From Amanita rubescens (lineage: Eukaryota; Basidiomycota; Agaricomycetes; Agaricales; Amanitaceae), in the NCBI GenBank assembly GCA_015039365.1, contig WION01000192.1:40225-104224 (forward strand): a stretch of 64,000 nt of DNA, written 5' to 3'. A program made the position numbers and the translations under genes. Below, in pieces: positions 1 to 18,747 of the stretch (position 1 is the first letter of the stretch; every line of letters starts with the position of its first letter). The notes beneath the pieces were generated by a model that was not told the DNA's origin, made no database searches, and saw nothing but the letters and a program-made list of their open reading frames with translations.

Positions 1-1082
1 GATCAACATCCCTTCTATTACTTGTAACGTGATCGTTTTCCGCCAGAATTGTGGCTTCCAATCGTCGAAGCATATTATATGCGCTGACAACACTTGCCCT
101 GTCTTGTAGAGGCTGAGGGAGCAAAAGTGGGAGTGGAGTGCCGGGCATGAGGCCAAGGAACGACTCGAAGGCGTTCTTATAGCAAAATGATGGATAAATG
201 GGACAAGCGATAGCCTACAGCACGGCTTTTCCCGCCATCGGCTTTTCCCCTCCCTCTCTAATCCGTTTGATTGTGCTGACCAGCTGTGTTCCACGGCCAT
301 CCTGCCTCAATCGTGCCCACCGCATGAAACCCCTACCCCAACATGCCAAATCCTGCCCCACGACGACTCTGACAACTACGCGGGGACTCTGACCCTTTAC
401 ACCCTACCATGCCCAATTTCGCCCAATGGCATCTTTTACAACAACGCGAAAGGCCCAACACCTGGCTGTGACCCCTCTACACACAATCTCACCCACCGGT
501 ACCTCTTCCAACCATGCGTAACCCATTTACGCCCACCGGCGACCCCCTACTATCTGCTCAACTTGTTTCCAAAAAAGGAGAGGCTCGCTCGCGAACGTCT
601 CCTTTTTGGGACATATCCTTTTTGGGAAAATACCAACGTTGTCCGCTAATGTATCTTCCAACCATCTACAAGCATTGAAAGTTCAGTTACTATTGGAATC
701 GCAATCGGTATCTCATCCTGCAGCACTATCTACCCTTGCCAGCTGCCCAGTTAGTCTGTGGGCGATGAGCTATATGCTGGGCCATATTATCCGGACTCGT
801 TGGTGTATGTTCTCATCATGCAAGTCGTGTTACAACAGCATGGTAAATCTCCGGGCCCCAACAGTCAACACTACGCTGAACGTTGTCGGGTGAGTCAGGG
901 GACGACTGTTGCGAGGAAGATACACGCTCTCCGATACGTATTCGCTACAGAAGCCGTTGATGTAGGCAGAATAACAACATGATTTTATTGTTCCTTGCAT
1001 ACAAAGAAAGAAGACGCAAAACAGGATGATGCATAATCGGATCGTTTGATTGAAGCATAAATGAAGATATCAGACAAAGGTG
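1..1082. other. No convincing gene; contains a perfect-looking hairpin
   Basis: I see no supportable gene here. Short open frames exist but lack recognisable motifs or splice structure. The one visible structure is an inverted repeat at 569-581 and 598-610 (CCAAAAAAGGAGA against TCTCCTTTTTGGG) with a 16-nt loop. From about 867 to 1082 the DNA resembles 1484-1700, so this is the 3' flank of the oldest unit of the membrane-protein tandem array to the right. Confidence 0.6.
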
Positions 1083-1345
1083 TCAATAATATGCGGGTGG
1101 TGGCTCATCGGACAATCCTTGCGCCCAATCTGACGAGAGCTGCGTGTGCAGGTGGTCAATTCTAGTGTTAAGGTGACGTATCTGCTCGTGCATAACCTCC
1201 ATCTCGCGTTCTGTTTCTTGCCTTCTAACGTCACTTGACGACAAGGAGACGTGACCGGTCTCGCTGCGCATCGCAGCGGATTGCTAGAAGTAAGGTCGTG
1301 CATCTCCTGTTGCGCAGTTTGGAGATGCTGATTGATTTCCATTTG
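1083..1345 (-). pseudogene. Remnant tail of a third membrane-protein copy
   Basis: Minus-strand fragment matching only the C-terminal cytoplasmic tail of the genes at 1712-3166 and 4665-6137. It keeps the coiled-coil stretch starting QMEINQHLQTAQQEM, the segment EVMHEQIRHLNTRIDHLHTQ, and the terminal DEPPPAYY. The two halves lie in different frames, so at least one indel separates them near 1271-1290, and no ectodomain or membrane segment precedes them. Its 3' flank also resembles that of the neighbouring copy, so a whole 3' end was duplicated in tandem and then decayed. Confidence 0.8.
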
Positions 1346-1711
1346 GCCCGCAGCTCCTTCTGGATCGGTACTAGCTATGCTCGTCCGAGCAACGTCATTG
1401 GGATCCTCCACCAGCGGCCCCCGTCATATAAGCCGTATTGATCATGTTGACAACAGGCTGGTAACTCTTCGGGATTTCACACATTCAATACGACGCTGAA
1501 TGTCGTAGGATGAGTCAGGTGACGACCTTGTGAGGAAGGCACACGCTCTCCGACACATATTCCCCACAGAAGCTGTTGGTGTAGGTGGTGTTCACGTTGA
1601 ACAATAACATGTTTCTAAAAAGTAAAAGGAAACGCAAGACAAGTTCCTACTAGGACTATACGTATTTGGGTCACTTGGTTGAAGCATAAACGAAAATGGC
1701 AGGTAAAGATG

Positions 1712-3166
1712 TTAATAATACGTGGGTGGCGGTTCATCGGATAACCCTTGTGCCAAATCCGATGAGAGCTGCATGTGAAGATGCTCCATTCGTGTGTTAA
1801 GACGATGTATCTGCTCGCGCATAACCTCCATCTCCCGGTCCGTTTCTTGCCCTATAACGTCACTTGACGTCTCACTGCGCATTGCAGATTGCCTAGGCGT
1901 AAGATCCTGCATCTCTTGTTGTGCGGTTTGGAGATGCTGATTGATCTCCATTTGGCGCATGGCTCTCAGTCCATCTTGGCCCTTCCTATTGGGTGCCAGC
2001 GATGACTGGAATTGTCGAAAAGGCACCAGTCTCCCAGTCGAGTCAAACGAATGTGAGTGGACAATACCGTGTTGGTTTGGCATAATTCCCTCGGAGGGGC
2101 CGGGATTTTCATTCTGGCTGGCAGAGTTTTGCTGCTGTAGATCGGTAGTATTGCTCGTCTTAACACCATCAGAGCCGCCTACGAGCAATTGACGATTGAA
2201 TGATGTGGTAAGGATGGGCTCAATAACTACTTTCTGCGACCTCCTTGAACGTCTGAATCGGAACGCCAGCGCCACGAGTAACGCAATAAATCCAAGACCC
2301 CCAAATGCACATCCGATGGCAATCTTCAACTTGCGATTCGATGATGAGATGTATGTTTTTGCAGTCTGGGTGGGATGGGCAATCGTCCTAGTGGATGATG
2401 ATCCTATTAAAGTCGATGAGGTCGCATTGTCGGGGATGTCAGCTCTGAGGTGATATTAGATCCGCGGGCTGATGGGCGATATCAATGAATAGACATACGT
2501 ATAAATGGCATAGTCAAAGATGAGATTGGTTTGATTCACGCCTTTCGTCCAGATCACCAATTCATGCTGGGAGTTGTCCAACCCGGTAGCATTGAAGACG
2601 CTAGCATTATACTGTATGGCAGGAGTCCCGTTAGTCTGGTGGAAGAAAGGGCCCATATCATTGCCATCGAGGGTAAAATTGCATGCCGTATTGAATGGAA
2701 TAGAAACGTTGCCAACGGCGACTGGCCCTGCCAACTCACTGGCATCAGGATTCTGAGTGTTTGCGATGATGAAAAATACCCAGATGGATATGCCTGTAAA
2801 GAGAGTGTATCGTTGGTGAACAAGGAAAGAGTTGGATGGGTGCCCATTTTTCTAACCTGTGAAAGAGAGTGTGATGTTCAGCCCAGTGGTCTTATAAGGC
2901 GAAGTCGGATCATATGATGCAGCCGTCCATGTTCCGTTAAAGGCTAAGGAAGTGTTCGATACCAGACCACAACCATCAGTGCCACATTTCGCTGAATAAT
3001 ACCAAGCGGAATATACTCCACTGGCACTAGGCCAGTAGATGGGCTTTTGGCCCGTTGCAAGGTCCCCATAAGTATCATCTATGCTAATGTTGACGAAGCG
3101 TGCCCCCGTTGTGTGGATGAGGAGGAAGAGAAAGAGACAGTCGAGGGAGGCTTGTCTGACCCACAT
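1712..3166 (-). CDS. Single-pass membrane protein, N-glycosylated ectodomain and PPxY tail
   Basis: Three exons: 3166-2857, 2793-2499 and 2444-1712, with introns of 63 and 54 bp (the second has a GTATGT donor and CTCAG acceptor); the phases give 445 residues. The N-terminus is a signal peptide (WVRQASLDCLFLFLLIHTTG). The ectodomain begins with NISIDDTYGDLATGQ, a start common in an Agaricomycete family of beta-rich extracellular domains, and has many N-x-S/T sites. A membrane helix (AIGCAFGGLGFIALLVALAF) is followed by the basic stop-transfer FRFRRSRR, a Ser/Gln-rich linker, a heptad-like coiled coil and a terminal PPPTYY. PPxY is a known ligand for WW-domain ubiquitin ligases, so endocytic turnover is a reasonable inference. 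Substrate and function are unknown. This is the only intact copy of the array. Confidence 0.85.
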
Positions 3167-3339
3167 ATGTGGGTACCGTGGTAGGAGTTCTCATAGTACG
3201 TTATCTCCGCACCTGTTCAAACACCTCCTTGTTCCCGTCGCAGCTTGGCCCTTAATGCGGCATGCGATCTGGGATCGAGACTGGGGGCCAGATCACTTCC
3301 TCCTTGAACCCATCAGGAAAATTCTGGTTTGGCTTATGC

Positions 3340-4240: not shown

Positions 4241-4664
4241 AAGGCAACCCAGAATTCTCCTGATGCCGTTCCCAGGGAGACGAGTGCTCGTCCCTTAAAC
4301 CGATATAATGTTGAGCCAGACAACATAACGCCAAGACGTCCCGGGATCGTACTACGCTCAGCTTCCCCAACTTGATGTGACTTGTGTTGACAGCACGCGC
4401 GTATTGCGCCCAAGACTCACCGTCAATAGCGAGTAACGTCATCCAAAATAGCAGTTTTGGGAGGCTCGTGCTTTACAAGTGCGTCAGTCTCATATATCTC
4501 ATCTTCACTTGATACAAGCCAGTATCGTTGAAATTTCTTCATCATTGCCCGACATTGGCTAACACAGTCGATGCTACTGGTGTATGGGGTATTCGCATTG
4601 AACAATACATAACACGCTATTGCTCTCTTGGTTGAAGCATAAACGAAAATGACGTGTAAATATG

Positions 4665-6137
4665 TTAATAATAGTATGCGGGCGGCGGTTCATCGGATAA
4701 CCCTTGTGCCCAATCCGACGAGAGCTGCATGTGAAGATGCTCCATTCGTGTGTTAAGATGATGTATCTGCTCGCGCATAATCTCCATCTCGCGTTGCCTT
4801 ATAACGTCATTTGGTGACGGGTTGTGATCGGACTCACTGCACATTGCAGATTGTCTAGACGTAAGAACCTGCATCTCTTGTTGTGTGGTTTGGAGATGCT
4901 GATTGATTTCCATTTGGCGCTCGGCTCTGAGTTCATCCTGGCCCTTCCTATTGGGTACTTGTGGCGACTGGAATTGTCGAAATGGCACCAGTCTTGCAGG
5001 TCTCCCTGTTGAGTCAAACGAATGTGAGTGGACAATACCAGCGTGTTGGTCTGTTATGATTCCCTCGGAGGGGCCGGGATTTTCATTATGGCTGGCAGAG
5101 TTTTGCTGCTGCATATCAACAGTATTTCTCATTGTAACACCATCGGAGCCGCTTACAGGTAATTGACAGTGATTGAACGACGCGGCAAGGATGGGCTTAA
5201 TAACTCCTTTCTGCGCCCTCCTTGAACGTCGGAATCGAAACGCTAGCGCCAGGAGTAACGCAATAAGTGCAAGACCCCCGAGTGCACATCCAATGACAGT
5301 CTTCAACTTGAGATTCGATGACGAGATGTATGTTTTTGCAGTCTGGGTGCCACTGGGATGGACAATTGTCATAGTGGATGATGTCGATGAGGTTGCATTG
5401 TCGGGGATGTCAGCTCTGAGGTGAGATCAGATCCGCAGGCAGATGGGGCAATATCAATGAATAGACATACGTATAAATGGCGTAGTCAAAGATGAGATTG
5501 GTTTGATTCACGCCTTTTGTCCAGATCACCAATTCATGCTGGGAGTTGTCCAACCCGGTGCCAAGCATTGAAGATGCTAGCATTATACTGTATGGCAGGA
5601 GTCCCGTTAGTCTGGTGGAAGAAAGAGCCCATATCATTGCCATCGAGGGTAAAATTGCACGCTGTATCGAATGCTTCAGAAAATGTTTGAATGTTTGACC
5701 CCGTAGAAGCAGTAGCATTCCCGGTGTTTGAAATGATGAAAAATAGCCAGATAGATACGCCTGTAAGGAGTATTGTCAGTGAATATTTGAAGACAAGGAA
5801 AGAGTTGGATGGGTGCTAAATTTTTCTAACCTGTGAAAGAGAGTGTGATGTTTATCCCAGTGGTGTTGTAACTTAATGGATCATATGATCCAGCTGTCCA
5901 CGTTCCGTTGAAGGCTAAGGAAGTGTCCGGTGCCACATAACAACCAGGAATACCAGGAACGCAGTTTGCTGAATAATACCAAGGGCTTCCGGTGCCAGTG
6001 GGCTGGTAGACAGGCTTTTGGCCCGTTGCAAGGTCCCCATAAGTATCATCTATGCTAATGTTGACGAGACGCGCCCAGACTGTGCAGACAAGGAGGAAGA
6101 GAAAGAGCAAGTTGAGGGAGGCTCGTCTAACCCACAT
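4665..6137 (-). pseudogene. Frameshifted paralogue of the membrane protein at 1712-3166
   Basis: Same three-exon plan: 6137-5831, 5760-5471 and 5415-4665, with introns of 70 and 55 bp. Signal peptide, NISIDDTYGDLATGQ motif, membrane helix (IGCALGGLALIALLLALAF), coiled-coil tail and terminal PPPAYYY are all present. In exon 2 the codons for NATGLDNSQHE are disrupted by four extra bases near 5560 (CCGGTGCCAAGCATT against CCGGTAGCATT in the intact copy). Translation from the start therefore ends about ten codons later, before the membrane helix. The downstream frame is otherwise well preserved, so the lesion is recent or the gene now makes only a secreted ectodomain. Exon phases confirm the shift: the summed exon length is not a multiple of three. 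Confidence 0.8.
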
Positions 6138-6203
6138 ACTATGTGGGTAGTCTCCCGTAGTCAGACCAATATGTAAATTTGTGTCTTTTTTGACGTGATG
6201 CAC

Positions 6204-6892: not shown

Positions 6893-7464
6893 TGAAACGT
6901 GTGAGAAGGGCGTGCGATGTACTTGTCCGCCCAAAGGGGTCCGAAGGAAAGGCTAACAAAGGGGAACCGTACAGAGTACGGAGACGGAGGGTTCGACGGT
7001 GACGGAGTAAACCCGCAATGCAAACGGACGCAAGTCCGACGAAGATGCGTCGTGACGGAACGAAGTCGGACAAGTGCGAAGACGTACGACGGTGACGGAG
7101 TGAACCCGCGACGTAAAGGAACGTGAGTGCAACGAAGTTGCGACGGAGAGATATCAAACGGATGCGGAGGAGTGAAGGGCAGTATATTCGATGTCCATAC
7201 AGTACAATGAAGCCGTATATAAACTAATATGCACGAGGCGCACTCACCGCAATCATCCTGAGCTCCTCCGATGGTCCGTGCGCGTATGCAGATTGCCTTG
7301 CTGTATGAATATGTCGAGTCGGCGGGTTGAGCCCTTGGCATCGTGTACGGGTGTCGAGGCGCGAAGGTTTAAGTGCGTCGGAATGCTCCGACGGATATCT
7401 CCGATGTCGGAATATCGGGCCGCGGATGCCTGCTGCACAACGTAACCGGAATCGGTACGTTACA
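6893..7464 (-). repeat. 3' LTR of Gypsy-1
   Basis: 572 bp, TGTAACG...CGTTTCA on the coding (minus) strand, matched by 15018-15589 with two substitutions. Internally it holds imperfect repeats built on GACGGAGT(A/G)AACCCGC and CGACGGTGACGGAG. A TATATAAA at 7216-7223 reads towards the antisense gene. Confidence 0.95.
7216..7223 (+). promoter_or_regulatory. TATATAAA in LTR, oriented towards the antisense gene
   Basis: The box reads TATATAAA on the plus strand, about 355 bp upstream of the ATG at 7579, so the 3' LTR could supply the antisense promoter. The reverse strand reads TTTATATA, so the same site may also serve the sense transcript. Promoter use is inference. Confidence 0.4.
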
Positions 7465-7578
7465 CCTCCTGGATACTTTTAGAAACTGACTCCGAGTCAG
7501 CGCCGCGGTGATAAGAGGGGATAAGATTTGTGATAAGGGAGGTGGGTGGGATGCTTCCGTTCTTGAATCGCTACAATC

Positions 7579-8730
7579 ATGTCGCAGGCATCGTCGCTAT
7601 CGCAAGCTCCGTCGGCCTCTACGAATCCGTTGGCTGATGCGACCGCTGCTCAGTTAAAGAAGATGTCGGTGAAGTTTGTCCAACGTCTAGAGTCTAAGCC
7701 GGAGGGTCCGCAGGCGGAAGACGTAGCCGAAGTGCGCAAGTGGGTGGAACTGGCTCGAGGAGATGTGGTACGTCGATCGCATCGTATCGTCCTTTCGTTA
7801 TCGTCGAGTCTAGAAGAAGATACGGCGGTACAAGAAGGAGCTGGAGGAGATGGAGAAGGAGGTACTGATCATCTCTGTTGTGGAAGAAGGACTGGAGGAT
7901 TTCGATACGCTGGAACGGTGGTTGGCGGATCTGAACGAAGCAGGCACCATAAGTCGGTCGGAATCGGGCGTAGGTTTATCACCAGCGGACTCCATCAGTG
8001 TCGTGCCATCCGTCACTACCAGTGCTGCTGAGCGGAAACGAGCGGGGCCGTCTTCAGTTCAGGTCTCCTCCTCGAAGAAATTGGATGCTGGCGCATCGTC
8101 TCGTAAGGCTACTCCTTTTCCTGCTACCGAATTAATTGCGACCGATCAGGTACGTTGATTGCTGACTATGTGCTTGTCCCGTCGTTGCTGAAGGGCCGTC
8201 AGCGTTGCGCTTTGTGCGTGGAGCATGATCAGTTGTGCATTGTTAGTTCGGCGGGCGATGCATGTGACTTTTGTCGTCGTCGGAAGAAGGGGTGTAGCAA
8301 TGTCGGCAAGCGGGGAACCAGCGTGGCTTCCTCATCGATCCCAAGCGTCTCGTCGTCGCTGATAGGAGGGGTAGCGGACATGAGTGTCAAACCAGGCACT
8401 CCGAAACGGTCGGTCAAGCGCAAGGTGGAGGTGGTCGGGTCGAGCCCAGAGGATCAACCGCCGCGGAGGCACAGTCGGGGGGATCTTAAAGCGGAGGCAT
8501 CGGGGGAGGCCAGCTCGTCAAAACGCGATAAACAGCTGGCGGATATTCAGGTGGAGATGCAGGAGCTGAAGAACGTTGTGACTACTACGTTGAGTCACTA
8601 TAGCCGATCGTTTGAGAACCTTCATTCGCGGATTCAACAGATGCGGGATGAGGAGGGTGGCGAAGAGGAGGTTGTCGTCAAAACGGAGCCGAAACCAAAG
8701 GGCAAGGGCAAGGGCAAGGGGCGCGGTTGA
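7579..8730 (+). CDS. Antisense accessory gene of Gypsy-1: Zn2Cys6-type zinc-cluster protein
   Basis: Lies between pol and the 3' LTR on the strand opposite to gag-pol. Three exons, 7579-7767, 7814-8149 and 8194-8730, join in phase 0 across 46- and 44-bp introns (both donors GTACGT) to give 353 residues. The N-terminus is Ser/Ala-rich, followed by a charged coil (KKIRRYKKELEEMEKEV) and an acidic segment. Cysteines at 180, 183, 190, 199, 202 and 209 give CX2CX6CX8CX2CX6C, within the spacing of GAL4-type binuclear zinc clusters, with CRRRKKGC in the second half. A Lys/Arg patch, a second predicted coil (around DIQVEMQELKNVV) and a KGKGKGKGRG tail follow. DNA or RNA binding is likely; a regulatory role in the element's life cycle is inference. 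It ends 121 bp from the pol stop, so the transcripts converge. Confidence 0.8.
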
Positions 8731-8851
8731 AACGGACTGTCGGCGAGCGGCGGATGACGCGAGGCACCTGTACCATGTATGTTTTAAAATGAGCGTATCG
8801 TATAGTATGGCATGAAAGAAAGAGAAAATGTATTGGAACAGGGGAGCACGA

Positions 8852-11800
8852 TCAGCATTCTTCGGCGTCGGAGCCGTCATCCATGAGCTCTGCGTCGTCG
8901 AAACCACCATCTCCGCCGTCAGCGGAGAGGGTTTCATCAGGCGGCTCGTGTGTCATCGTATATAGCTCCCTGTCTGTCATATTAATTAATTTTAGAAGTC
9001 TCTCACCGGATTGTATTCTACGCGGGTGGTATGGGATTAAACGCTTAGCTGCATATCTTAGCTTGGAAAGGGATCCGTCGGTTTCTGCGAGTATAAATGA
9101 TCCTCCCTGAGTCTTTCTGATGACGACCATTGGTCCGAGGTAGCGGGTTTTGGTCTTGCGGTCGAGCTCCATGTCGATCTTATTATTGCGGACTAGAACG
9201 AGGTCTCCTTTATCGAATTGGAAGGATCGGATGGTGTGGCGGAAGCGCGATTCAAGTTTGCGGACCGCATTGAGACGTGACTGATATACTTCATCTTTGA
9301 TGCGTTCCAAGTCGGCGGGTCGCTTCTGAAGTTGTCGGGCGCGAAATGCAAGAAGGTCATCCGTCGTCAGCTCTGCGCTAATAGGTGGACATAGGTACGT
9401 AGCCTGGGATATGTCAAGCGGAAGAGTCGGTTCTACTCCGTGCGCAATGAAAAAGGGACTGTAACCAGTGGACGGGTGTACGGTGATACGTTCTGCCCAG
9501 AAGACGGAGGCTGCTACTTGACTCCATTTTGATTCCTGTCCGTCGGCCGCTTTAACGAGTGACTCGCGAACTCCACGATGTCGGCGCTCGATGATACCGT
9601 TAGCCTGTGAGTTATACGGCGAGATCCTGATGTGGTTAATGCCGTATCGTTGTCGGAGGATATCCAAGGCGGCAATATAAGGTGTTCCGTTGTCGGTGAC
9701 TATGCATTCGACGGCGCCATGTCTGCAGAGGATGTCTTCGAATATAAACTTCGCGATTCCTTCGGCTTTCTCGTTTCGGAGCATCCTATACTCGGGCCAG
9801 GCTGATAGAGAGCAGCGGGCATGCGTGATATATGAATAACCGCCGGAGGAGGGCATCTTCATAGTGTCTATGTGGATATTGCGGAAGAGACCTCCGGGCT
9901 CCGGCACGGTCGGCGGGATGTGGAAGCGCTGAACATTTCTTATTTGGCATGCGTGACAGGTGCGGACGTACCATCTAATGTCGGGCTCAAGCGATGGCCA
10001 CCAGAATCGGTCGCGGACTCGTGCGCTAGTGGCAAAAATGCCTTTATGACCTGTATCGTCGTGGGCCTCCTGAACAATCTCTAACCTCTTCGTGTCGTCT
10101 AGTATTACCAGCTTATGGCGGCGGTGTTTGTCGCGGCGCCAGAGCCTATCACCTTGGACGAAGAAGCGCTTTACTTTGCCCATCCAGTGGCGGAATCGTT
10201 CTTCATCCATATCTATCGGCCGTAGCGGATTGTCGAGGAACTCCTGAATTTTGAAAATTTCGGCGTCGCGGGAGAGCTGTTTGTCGGAGCGGGGGAAGGG
10301 GTCGGAGTCCGTTGTTGTCGACCAGGCAGAGGCCTTATTGTGTAGGACGTCCCAGTTAGCCGCCTGTATACAGAATCCGTTAGCTTCATCAATCCAGTCG
10401 TCGGGATCGGAGTCATCGGGCGGATCGTCGTCTTCTGCGCGGCGTCGTCGAGAAAGCCCGTCGGCTGGGGTGTGATCTTTACCGGGCACGTGTCGGAGGC
10501 GGAAATCAAACAAGAGGATGCCAGCGATCCATCTATTGATCGTGTTGTTAGGCTGTATATCGGGGTTATTGATCATTCCTTTAATGTATTTCGCGTCCAC
10601 CTCAACGATGAAGTTCTTAAGTCCGATAATGAATATTTTGGCCTCCCGAAGGGCGCGGAATAAACCGTAAAGTTCCAGTTTGGCCTGCGAATATCGTGCT
10701 TCTCGGTCGTTTAGTGTGATAGATCCGTAGCGGTTAGGGTAGCGGTTTCCGTCGTCGCCTATTTGGGAGAGATAGTATCCGACAGCATGGGCGGACGTGT
10801 CGACTGCTAGAATAGACTCGTTTTCTGACTCGTAGTCGAGGGCGCGAATAGCGGAGCAATTGGCGGCGAGCTTCTTAAGACTGTTGAAAGCTTCGATGTG
10901 GCGATCGGTGAATTCGAAGGCGGTCTTCCATTTGAGGAGGGCGGTGAGCAATGGCGCGTGCAGAGTGTAATCCTTGAGGTAAATGCGTACAGTCCCTATG
11001 GTTCCTAAGAATCCGCGAACGTCGGAGATGTTTTGAGGGATCGGCCACTTGGCTATTTTAGAGACTCTATCGTCGTCGGGGAGGCGGCCTTCGTACGTGC
11101 ATTTGTGTCCTAGAACTATCGCTTCGGGAGTGCAGAAAAAGGACTTCTTTCCTGAGAAGGTTCCGCCGGCGTGCTTAATGCGTTGGATGACCCTGTTGAT
11201 GTTTTGTAAGTGTTCCCAAACGAAGCGGCGGATTCCGGTGTTATCGGGGATGGTCTCAAACGTGCCGTCGGGTAACTCGTAACGTGTTTTCGGTCCTTTG
11301 CAGGGGCAATCGTCGATAAACGGCTTGGTAACGTGTGGGATTTCGTCCTGTAAAATGAAGGTAACGTCACCGTGGAAGATTTGCATAGAGTTCGTATATC
11401 CCATCGGTATGGAAGTGAGGCGGAACGTGCCAAGGGGCGTCTGGAAGGTGGTCAAGTCCCGGGACTCAGGCGCAAGGCGACGCTGGTCAAATCCGACGAA
11501 TAGATCGAACATTCCGAAGCATGAGTATCCGCCGAATGATTCCGCTAAAAGTTCAATGTTCGGCGGCTGGGCGGCGTCTTTGATAGTAACGGCGTTAAGC
11601 GGCTGGAGGTCGTGGACGATGCGGAGGGATTTTCCATCTTTTTTGAAGACGCAGAACCATCTGGAGCGGTAGGAAGAGTTAGACGGCTCGTATACACCAG
11701 AAGCGATCTTATCTTTGATAATTTTGACGATCTCATTGTATTTTCCTGGCGGAATCGGAATATTTCTGAGTACCCAAGGCACGTGTTCTATTGTCGGAAT

Positions 11801-15017: not shown

Positions 15018-15589
15018 TGAAACGTGTGAGAAGGGCGTGCGATGTACTTGTCCGCCCAAAGGGGTCCGAAGGAAAGGCTAACAAAGGGGAACCGTACAGA
15101 GTACGGAGACGGAGGGTTCGACGGTGACGGAGTAAACCCGCAATGCAAACGGACGCAAGTCCGACGAAGATGCGTCGCGACGGAACGAAGTCGGACAAGT
15201 GCGAAGACGTACGACGGTGACGGAGTGAACCCGCGACGTAAAGGAACGTGAGTGCAACGAAGTTGCGACGGAGAGATATCAAACGGATGCGGAGGAGTGA
15301 AGGGCAGTATATTCGATGTCCATACAGTACAATGAAGCCGTATATAAACTAATATGCACGAGGCGCACTCACCGCAATCATCCTGAGCTCCTCCGATGGT
15401 CCGTGCGCGTATGCAGATTGCCTTGCTGTATGAATATGTCGAGTCGGCGGGTTGAGCCCTTGGCATCGTGTACGGGTGTCGAGGCGCGAAGGTTTAAGTG
15501 CATCGGAATGCTCCGACGGATATCTCCGATGTCGGAATATCGGGCCGCGGATGCCTGCTGCACAACGTAACCGGAATCGGTACGTTACA
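15018..15589 (-). repeat. 5' LTR of Gypsy-1
   Basis: 572 bp; pairs with 6893-7464 with two visible substitutions. It is followed outside by CCGG, the target-site duplication. Confidence 0.95.
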
Positions 15590-16119: not shown

Positions 16120-16517
16120 TGTAACGAGCCGATTCCGGCTACATTGGAACCGATCTCCGAAACCTTCCGAAGCTCCCTGAAGCACTCCGAGCCTATACTC
16201 GACCCCGGAGGATGATCGTTTGAGTTCGGATATGCGCACAGACCCTCAGACTCGGTGCAGGATTCATCACATGGTTACCTCATGCCTCCGTAGTATATAT
16301 ACCACCTTGTACGTAGTTGTAGTTAGCGAATTATCACCCCATTACTGCTCCGAGTTTGATTCCTTCGGTTCCCTTCGTTCCTCGGTGCTTCGGACACCTT
16401 CCACTGGTTCACCTTCGCATTCGGCACCCTCTCTGCCTCCGAGGCACCTCCAGGACTGACCTCCGAAGCCCCTTTGGCCGAACGCACTTCCGCATCGGCC
16501 TTCTTCTGATCGTTTCA
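16120..16517 (+). repeat. 5' LTR of gag-only element
   Basis: 398 bp, visibly identical to 18350-18747. A TATATATA box lies at about 16297-16304. Outside Gypsy-1-like termini the LTR body is diverged from Gypsy-1. Confidence 0.93.
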
Positions 16518-16519
16518 AC

Positions 16520-16537
16520 TGGAGCCCACCGCGAGGG
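16520..16537 (+). promoter_or_regulatory. Primer-binding site of gag-only element
   Basis: TGGAGCCCACCGCGAGGG, two bases after the LTR; differs at one position from the Gypsy-1 site. Confidence 0.75.
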
Positions 16538-16903
16538 GCTCTTAGGTCAGTCCGTCGGTCATTCCTTTCACCCAACTGCTGCACAGAAAGCATCGGACAA
16601 GTTCCGGTGTCACTTGGAATCTGCTCCGAGCCACTCCAAGCACTCTGCCGGCCTCCCCATAGCTCAGAGACCATACCCCGCCGACCTTTCTTCAATTATA
16701 CCCTCCCCGCTCTTTACACTGCAGTAGCCTTCACCACTCGGCCCCACAGCACTGACACAGCATCAGCCGAACAACGCCCACACGTTCCACTACTCCCGAT
16801 CCAGCTCCGATCGATCAATAGCTTTTGTCCCTGAAGCCCCTTGCTTAATCCACCTCGCTTTCCATCAGAACAGCTTGCTTCACTTCGGCCTGCCAGTAAC
16901 ATC

Positions 16904-18445
16904 ATGACCGAACCAAACCGCCGCATGCCCATCCGAACGAACAAGGAGGCACCCTGCTTCCGAGGCACTGCCGCTGGTCTTGAGAGATACCTCGAAGATA
17001 TCGAGATGATCTGCGAGGATAGACAACGCTCCGGAGATGCTGAACTGATCAAATGGGCTGTCTACTATACCGATGAGAAATCTTCCGAGATCTGGAGAGC
17101 CGCTCGAGACACCCTATCGGATCCGAAAACCTGGGATGCGTTTAAGAAAGCGATTTCCGAGATCTACCCCGAGGCACAGCCCGATCGCCGCCACACTATT
17201 GCAGCACTACACGCCATTTCCGGCCGCTTCTCAGTGCAAAATGTTGCATCAGAGACAGCCCTCGCTGAGTATCACAGGGAATTTTCCGGAACAGCTCAGT
17301 ACCTCATCAGAAAGCGCTGCATGACACGCCGTGAGGCAAGCATCATGTACATGTCCGCATTCCCTCCCGAGCTCCGACCCGATATCACTACTCGGCTCAC
17401 AATCAAGTACCCGGACGTCCACCCCGATGACGGCTATGATCTAAAGGACATGAATAGTGCCGCACAATTCATTATCAGCTCAAGGTCTGCTATAGCCTTG
17501 CTCGCCGCAACCACCCCACAAGCTCCGACGCTTCCAACACCTCCAACACCTATCCCTACTCCCCTTCCGAGCACTGCCTTCGCTCCGAGCACAGCCTCCA
17601 CCCATCTCCTTAGTGGATGCATTTTCTGCGGAGATATCAATCATCGGACGGCCTGCTGCCATATCAGGGATGAATACGCAAGGCAAGGGAAGATCAAAAT
17701 AGTCGATGGACGGATTCAATTTTTGGACGGCAACGAACCAAATGCATTCCAATACCGCCACTTCGGACAATGGTTCAAAGAACGCATTGATGTATGGCTG
17801 CTGAGGTACACACAGCCGACCGCTCCGAAGCCATTTGTGTCCTCCAACTACTTCCTGGAAGCTCTAGACCACTCCGGAACGCATACCGCCGAGCCTGTCA
17901 ATACTGAAGCACTGCAAAACGTACATACGACTCCGACGCACATACACATTAGCACCACGATCCCTAATCAATCCACGCTCCCTAATACCACCCCCTCCGA
18001 ACCCTCCAGACCCTCCAGACCCTCCGACGCTCCTACCACTACAATGCATGATACCGCCGAGACCTCTGAGGCTCCTGATGACCCCACCACTGCTACGCCA
18101 ATTTCTGCCACCCCGGAAACCCTCGGCGACCCCATCGCCGAAGTCTTTATCATTTCCGAGCCATCTGGCATCCCAACAGCTGCCATTCCGAGACCTGATT
18201 CCGCCGAAATTCCGACCGCCGCCCTGACCGCCTGCACGATTGAAGAAAGCGAGATGAGAAGAACCCACCCACCACTTCCCTTCTACTTTCTATCACCATC
18301 CGACCTCTCCGACCTGACCAGGAGGTCAGTATTAAAAGTACCCAGGAGGTGTAACGAGCCGATTCCGGCTACATTGGAACCGATCTCCGAAACCTTCCGA
18401 AGCTCCCTGAAGCACTCCGAGCCTATACTCGACCCCGGAGGATGA
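16904..18445 (+). CDS. gag: Gag of the non-autonomous element, running into its 3' LTR
   Basis: Begins ATG at MTEPNRRMPIRTNKEAPCF, collinear with the Gypsy-1 gag start. Shared segments include KWAVYYTDEKSS, RRHTIAALHAIS, DITTRLTIKYPDVHPD and zinc knuckle CIFCGDINHRTACC (CX2CX4HX4C, near residue 242). After this, a Ser/Thr/Pro-rich region replaces the protease. The frame has no stop before the 3' LTR (18350) and takes its last ~32 residues and stop from LTR sequence. That junction suggests an internal deletion that removed PR and pol. About 513 residues from this ATG. Confidence 0.85.
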   Translation: MTEPNRRMPIRTNKEAPCFRGTAAGLERYLEDIEMICEDRQRSGDAELIKWAVYYTDEKSSEIWRAARDTLSDPKTWDAFKKAISEIYPEAQPDRRHTIAALHAISGRFSVQNVASETALAEYHREFSGTAQYLIRKRCMTRREASIMYMSAFPPELRPDITTRLTIKYPDVHPDDGYDLKDMNSAAQFIISSRSAIALLAATTPQAPTLPTPPTPIPTPLPSTAFAPSTASTHLLSGCIFCGDINHRTACCHIRDEYARQGKIKIVDGRIQFLDGNEPNAFQYRHFGQWFKERIDVWLLRYTQPTAPKPFVSSNYFLEALDHSGTHTAEPVNTEALQNVHTTPTHIHISTTIPNQSTLPNTTPSEPSRPSRPSDAPTTTMHDTAETSEAPDDPTTATPISATPETLGDPIAEVFIISEPSGIPTAAIPRPDSAEIPTAALTACTIEESEMRRTHPPLPFYFLSPSDLSDLTRRSVLKVPRRCNEPIPATLEPISETFRSSLKHSEPILDPGG

Positions 18446-18747
18446 TCGTTTGAGTTCGGATATGCGCACAGACCCTCAGACTCGGTGCAGGATTCATCAC
18501 ATGGTTACCTCATGCCTCCGTAGTATATATACCACCTTGTACGTAGTTGTAGTTAGCGAATTATCACCCCATTACTGCTCCGAGTTTGATTCCTTCGGTT
18601 CCCTTCGTTCCTCGGTGCTTCGGACACCTTCCACTGGTTCACCTTCGCATTCGGCACCCTCTCTGCCTCCGAGGCACCTCCAGGACTGACCTCCGAAGCC
18701 CCTTTGGCCGAACGCACTTCCGCATCGGCCTTCTTCTGATCGTTTCA
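18350..18747 (+). repeat. 3' LTR of gag-only element
   Basis: Copy of 16120-16517; preceded by PPT CCCAGGAGG and followed by GCGT (target-site copy). Confidence 0.93.

Follow-up and report, generated by a model that had tools for sequence, protein, structure and literature searches.

An intron-containing antisense gene for a protein with a Zn2Cys6-like cysteine cluster in Ty3/gypsy retrotransposons of Amanita rubescens

Introduction

Antisense accessory open reading frames (ORFs) of long terminal repeat (LTR) retrotransposons are already known, and their functions are stated to be unknown in PMC7264820. In plants, the aORF-3R group (gene23 of Grande and the ORFs of RIRE2 and Retand TRP28) occupies the interval from pol to the 3' LTR on the strand opposite to gag-pol and is kept in most copies (PMC7264820, PMC11963269). 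We analysed a 64,000-nucleotide stretch of the Amanita rubescens genome (GenBank assembly GCA_015039365.1, contig WION01000192.1, positions 40,225 to 104,224 of the forward strand; hereafter the window), in which a Ty3/gypsy retrotransposon carries a gene in the same place and orientation. The plant proteins, like the one here, are probably nuclear or DNA-binding (PMC7264820, PMC11963269). They have a TRP28, an SMC or no known domain, and a Zn2Cys6-like cluster is not described for them in the accessible sections of these sources; the word 'intron' does not occur in either of them.

In fungi the nearest case is brtn of the Boty-like elements of Botrytis cinerea, like the gene described here an antisense gene in the pol-3' LTR interval of a Ty3/gypsy element (PMC7264820, PMC8365987). 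The gag-pol of Boty-like elements has a chromodomain (PMC4227169), whereas a Pfam scan showed none in pol of the window element. Human T-cell leukaemia virus types 1 and 2 (HTLV-1, HTLV-2) each have an antisense gene, HBZ and APH-2, respectively, whose transcript starts in the 3' LTR and is spliced and whose product is nuclear, and HBZ interferes with sense transcription in HTLV-1 (PMC10186651); in the fungal gene the splice sites are predicted. HBZ has a bZIP domain, APH-2 does not, and neither has a zinc cluster. These are human viruses, and homology is not suggested.

In the literature covered, which lies mostly outside subscription journals, we found no fungal LTR retrotransposon described as carrying an antisense gene that contains introns or encodes a zinc cluster. 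Antisense accessory ORFs as such are established by Grande, Retand and Boty brtn, and what is new here is the combination of conserved introns and a Zn2Cys6-like domain. The explanation we favour, at roughly even chances, is that the gene is an accessory gene of the element and encodes an HBZ-like regulator of genomic-strand transcription.

Results

The gene occupies positions 7579-8730 of the window on the plus strand. Its three exons are antisense to gag-pol and lie between pol and the 3' LTR (Table 1), as had been proposed in an earlier reading made from the letters without database searches (the sequence-only reading). Gene and pol face each other with their 3' ends, the gene ending 121 nt from the pol stop codon. 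The sequence-only reading had assumed a 44-nt intron 2 with an AAG acceptor at 8193, so that exons 7579-7767, 7814-8149 and 8194-8730 gave 353 codons plus stop with all joins in phase 0. The frame does join in this way. We replaced this intron by one of 53 nt that uses a CAG acceptor 9 nt downstream, because it aligns with a 53-nt intron 2 in a second element family of the same genome (family B; the family of the window element is family A). Intron 2 therefore most likely ends at 8202, which leaves a protein of 350 rather than 353 amino acids.

Table 1. Positions of the element and its antisense gene in the window
Feature	Position	Strand	Basis
3' LTR	6893-7464	-	LTR comparison
Leader/polypurine tract (PPT) region, 114 bp, three GATAAG motifs	7465-7578		motif scan
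Inverted repeat CTGACTC-C-GAGTCAG, between PPT and start codon	7486-7500		leader comparison
Exon 1, 63 codons	7579-7767	+	splice model, family comparison
Intron 1, 46 nt, GTACGT..TAG, phase 0 (predicted)	7768-7813	+	splice model, A/B comparison
Exon 2, 112 codons	7814-8149	+	splice model, family comparison
Intron 2, 53 nt, GTACGTTG..CAG, phase 0 (predicted)	8150-8202	+	family B alignment
Exon 3: cysteine cluster, serine-rich linker, coiled coil, GK-rich tail	8203-8730	+	stop 8728-8730
Cluster CX2CX6CX8CX2CX6C, residues 2-31 of exon 3, Zn2Cys6-like	8206-8295	+	spacing, Pfam, AlphaFold2 (AF2) model
pol ORF (reverse transcriptase, RNase H, integrase), 1256 aa	8852-12622	-	ORF + Pfam
gag-protease ORF, 600 aa	12529-14331	-	ORF + Pfam
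5' LTR	15018-15589	-	LTR comparison

The element that carries the gene is a complete Ty3/gypsy LTR retrotransposon on the minus strand, with gag followed by protease, reverse transcriptase, RNase H and integrase in this order between LTRs, and is flanked by CCGG as its target-site duplication (TSD). RNase H, integrase H2C2 and gag-asp protease exceeded their Pfam cut-offs; RVT_1 scored 24.5 bits, below its cut-off of 29.6. The two LTRs of 572 bp each differ at 2 positions, i.e. the element is young, in agreement with the sequence-only reading.

The genome (75.7 Mb in 786 contigs) was searched for further copies. Family A comprises at least 9 copies at 99-100% identity including that of the window. 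A protein search yielded 103 exon matches, which make up 9 family A loci and 27 family B loci. Family B matched exon 3 with 42-45% and exon 2 with about 34% identity; the matches to exon 1 were weak (E 0.17-0.86). Fifteen of the 27 family B loci, mostly lower-ranked ones, were retrieved. Compared over full ORFs, pol of the two families is about 75% and gag 54-59% identical, and the antisense gene product 37-39%. Because some contigs are probably duplicate or allelic (C337, C475, C478 and C479 match alike; L040, L052 and L053 share a flank, as do L050 and L051), the 36 loci are not all independent insertions. A further weak match in C42 (L054; 25% identity, E 0.6) stands outside the 36. Like the window element many copies are young: the LTR pairs of five other family A copies are 99.5-99.8% identical, and 6 of the 15 family B loci retain their own pair with 99.6-100% identity. 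A seventh LTR pair, in L039 (C126), is that of an inserted element with a 99.6% direct repeat. This insert of about 2.6 kb interrupts the gene, with the exon 2 part on one side and the exon 3 part on the other, and its direct-repeat ends match the LTR end of a neighbour element in the window (see below).

Pol positions were obtained by scoring 37 of 624 candidates. In 33 of the 36 loci the gene is antisense to an adjoining pol with 3' ends facing, 31 of them at a spacing of 128-156 nt, and the remaining three (C30, C229, C588) have pol fragments in the adjoining DNA. Position, orientation and a frame conserved in most copies agree with the plant aORF-3R. The gene is present in related elements; its absence from all of them would, according to the sequence-only reading, have refuted the interpretation. 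Beyond this genome homologues were metagenome proteins only (3, 10 and 1 matches), named fungal genomes being outside the scope of the search, and a search of viral contigs gave no relatives. A host gene caught beside an LTR by chance was rejected, as all 36 loci adjoin pol or a pol fragment. The data support that the antisense gene belongs to the element. For the same reason it is highly improbable that a captured host zinc-cluster gene merely hitchhikes in the element without function. Zn2Cys6 proteins are common fungal regulators and the introns hint at descent from a cellular gene, yet a functionless passenger is hard to reconcile with purifying selection in two families, which differ by a quarter of their pol residues, and with the metagenome relatives.

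Intron positions are kept together with the six cysteines in family B. Intron 1 is 47 nt long in the seven other family A copies read. In family B it interrupts the same codon boundary in phase 0 with 46 nt (47 in the broken copies L050 and L051). Since the intron 1 sequences of the two families are unrelated (43% identity), the frame is restored by splicing alone. Intron 2 has a length of 53 nt in both families. Translated in the frame of exon 3, intron 2 resembles a kept peptide in families A and B and in the metagenome relatives P0004-P0009, with a sequence equal or similar to DYVxVPxLxxxxQRC. Donor, branch point and acceptor explain this conservation in part, and the DNA identity of intron 2 between A and B (0.585; exon mean 0.487) is unexceptional, as 18-19% of windows are equally high. 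An isoform that retains the intron or uses an alternative start may exist.

The coding frame contains no stop in the aligned exons of both families, while the other five frames hold 3-18 stops per sequence. A sense gene in this place (a 139-aa minus-strand ORF, 8518-8937) was rejected because all three minus frames carry 3-15 stops per sequence in the aligned exons of A and B, and a chance ORF was rejected in view of frame, introns and cysteines kept across families. In family A the frame is unbroken in 7 of 8 copies read, L008 having one extra base. Among the 15 family B loci, four (L040, L041, L042, L044) have the full frame of 362-363 aa, L049 has an in-frame deletion, L050-L053 are broken, and six fell outside the gene models of our script; exon 3 is stop-free in 25 of 27 family B matches.

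The ratio of nonsynonymous to synonymous differences per site (pN/pS) was 0.40 (bootstrap 0.26-0.64) between the family B subfamilies represented by L041 and L044, not near 1, the value that the sequence-only reading had named as refuting. Out-of-register frames of the same pair gave 0.95-1.15. The codon-mirror minus frame yielded 0.42, which is expected from mirroring, and contains stops. After control for mutation type and CpG context, 45 of 82 differences between L041 and L044 were nonsynonymous (57.2 expected, P 0.0016), and so were 6 of 17 among eight family A copies (11.2 expected, P 0.0098). The family A test included L005; the family B tests left out L005, which has a divergent start context, and the broken or truncated, misaligning L039, L050, L051 and L052. 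Within the B subfamilies the shortage was not significant (7 of 14, P 0.24, in five copies; 15 of 26, P 0.14, in two). The A-to-B ratios of 0.59-0.63 are uninformative because synonymous sites are near saturation. Thus the gene frame is under purifying selection, although it evolves faster than gag or pol.

Because selection acts at the protein level we favour a role of the protein over a pure antisense-RNA brake, in which the transcript would interfere with gag-pol RNA or feed RNA silencing and the frame would be secondary. Such a brake has precedents in retroviral antisense transcripts that repress sense transcription (PMC10186651) and in the double-stranded RNA proposed for plant antisense ORFs (PMC7264820). 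Yet amino-acid constraint, the stop-free frame, cysteines and phase-0 introns across families require a protein, and the gene ends short of the pol stop, so that an overlap with pol would need readthrough. We consider the brake improbable.

Constraint is weak by comparison with gag (pN/pS 0.06) and pol (0.09), and dN of the gene is about 10 times that of either. Furthermore, the stretch of exons 1 and 2 is the most divergent internal part between the B subfamilies, with 8.5-10% against 0-5% per 200-column block elsewhere. Being the fastest-evolving internal part of the element would suit a silencing suppressor, i.e. a DNA- or chromatin-binding protein that counters host methylation or RNA interference. 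On the other hand, no known suppressor appeared among the family scans made, and pN/pS was below 1 in every exon (0.35-0.68) without a sign of positive selection at this resolution. We consider a suppressor as improbable as the brake.

The protein contains a CX2CX6CX8CX2CX6C cluster, as the sequence-only reading had stated. Zn2Cys6 domains have the consensus spacing CX2CX6CX5-12CX2CX6-8C. The cluster fits it in all nine sequences that cover the cluster. All eight matches to the modelled cysteine domain among those listed from the PDB were GAL4-type, with low Z-scores throughout. From the AF2 model the domain probably adopts a Zn2Cys6-like fold. It resembles the fungal GAL4-type transcription factors of PF00172 in the six-cysteine spacing, in the fold as far as modelled and in a linker plus coiled coil after the cluster. 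It differs in that the basic half CDxCRxxKxxC comes second, the cluster has a central position in the protein, the profile matches only partially and the gene is carried by a retrotransposon. PF00172 scored 25.0 bits for the metagenome relative P0006 (cut-off 21), 20.1 for L044 and 13 for P0008, matching 13-15 of 39 positions; the profile pairs the first half of GAL4 with the basic second half-cluster, CDFCRRRKKGC. Two points qualify a GAL4-type assignment: the basic DNA-contact residues are missing from the first half-cluster, i.e. the half-clusters are swapped relative to GAL4, and the window copy scores below the gathering threshold of PF00172 (Zn_clus). The label 'GAL4-type' given by the sequence-only reading holds for the spacing and probably for the fold. 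Of the two coils it had predicted, one is supported by the AF2 model, where residues 105-151 of exon 3 form a helix of 47 residues, and the GK-rich tail is present at the end of the protein. A bZIP domain like that of HBZ was not found in a Pfam scan with E up to 10.

If the protein bound DNA as a dimer, a palindrome in the element would be a plausible target. The inverted repeat of the leader is present in all eight family A copies read. CTGACC-TCCT-GGTCAG takes its place in the 11 of 15 family B loci whose leader was read and in the neighbour element (18314-18329), CTGACTG-TCCC-CAGTCAG in both loci of a third family, C (see below). The arms vary between families A, B, C and D, yet stay paired. 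Shuffled leaders yield such a repeat in 8-21% (arm of at least 6) or 2-8% (arm of at least 7), so that a single occurrence is not rare; what argues for the repeat is its identical location in each family. Its possible functions are those of an operator to which a dimeric protein binds, of a hairpin formed by the 5' leader RNA, or of a component of the PPT signal. A candidate antisense TATA, TATATAAA, lies on the plus strand in the 3' LTR (7216-7223) of family A and has a counterpart, TATATATA, on the gene strand in the LTR of family B; in both families it precedes the ATG by 362-367 nt. GATAAG motifs recur in the leaders of both families, and the leader/PPT region is a candidate antisense promoter.

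All 11 two-sided TSDs of 4 bp are centred on CpG (NCGN), at a CpG frequency of 0.059 in the window. These are family A (window, L003/L056, L004/L057, L005/L058, L007/L060), family B (L040, L042, L044, L049, L051) and the neighbour element. One-sided flanks were GCGG (L041) and three times ACGC (C54, C662, C590); CCAT, common to L045-L048, was the exception. This preference bears on a role in integration, in which a dimeric DNA-binding factor would tether or aim the integration complex or aid its nuclear import, introns and antisense position being the expression route. GAL4-type domains commonly read CGG, which would suit the NCGN sites. The Grande antisense protein is reported to be nuclear (PMC7264820). 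However, CpG in the centre forms a palindromic core, which integrase may select unaided, and the neighbour element has a central-CpG TSD (GCGT) without a start of the gene. We regard a role in integration as unlikely, less so than brake or suppressor.

A third family with a similar plan, family C (C157, C160), has a pol 43-56% identical and a multi-exon gene antisense and downstream of it; its gene model was drawn by eye. The first intron is GTAAGT..CAG, the second GTAAGT..TAG, which ends in phase 0 exactly at the first cysteine, whereas intron 2 of A and B ends one codon before it, likewise in phase 0. The cluster, CX2CX8CX10CX2CX7C, is outside the Zn2Cys6 consensus, was modelled by AF2 with low confidence and showed no significant homology to the A/B profile (hhalign probability 0.5%). 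It is followed by a linker with acidic and basic residues, a long coiled coil that AF2 modelled confidently, a third intron and a PPKKKSRRN end. The metagenome relative P0014 has the cysteine spacing of family C, and its sequence seems to continue through an intron at this position. No LTR pair of C157 was found in the DNA around the locus examined. The plan common to A/B and C may reflect common descent or repeated gain. Two further loci, C50:74052-74630 and C777:25613-26191, encode relatives of the family C protein with 41-45% identity.

The neighbour element of the window (16120-18747, plus strand) has a GCGT TSD and a gag-like ORF and ends in the same PPT-palindrome arrangement on its 3' side, with only about 1.8 kb between its LTRs and without the start of the antisense gene. 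It is probably an internally deleted, non-autonomous relative. Elsewhere in the window, 1023-3167 and 4624-6138 form a duplication with blocks of about 73-97% identity at a spacing of about 2,970 bp; its ORFs resemble a gene for a secreted or membrane protein, and 1023-1356 is a third partial copy.

Discussion

An antisense position offers a simple account of how a retrotransposon can keep introns. As the sequence-only reading had argued, introns antisense to the genomic RNA are not spliced from it and would pass reverse transcription; the reasoning holds and agrees with the conservation of introns between families. Because they could be removed only from antisense RNA, the protein would be made only from integrated copies. 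Expression confined to integrated DNA and a probable DNA-binding dimer would together suggest a regulator that acts in the nucleus on the element itself, in the simplest case on its LTR or leader.

A regulator was one of the three roles proposed by the sequence-only reading, next to a silencing suppressor and an antisense brake. The HBZ-like regulator that we favour would act as follows. Host RNA polymerase II would read the gene from integrated DNA, with a promoter located either in the 3' LTR or in the leader of 114 bp, and the antisense transcript would then be spliced. The product, probably a nuclear dimer composed of a Zn2Cys6-like DNA-binding cluster, linker, coiled coil and basic tail, would bind a palindrome in the LTR or leader of its own element, most probably the inverted repeat at 7486-7500. 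Binding would determine how strongly the genomic strand is transcribed, in the manner of HBZ in HTLV-1. A more far-reaching version, in which a split antisense gene long carried by a lineage of fungal Ty3/gypsy elements encodes a dimeric, half-swapped zinc-cluster transcription factor that reads a palindrome with co-varying arms next to its promoter and LTR, and in which it controls sense transcription as an independently evolved HBZ-like circuit, is rather doubtful.

With this gene the old question of what antisense ORFs of LTR retrotransposons do becomes directly testable, since a candidate DNA-binding domain, conserved introns that mark the strand, many young copies in one genome and a candidate palindrome come together here.
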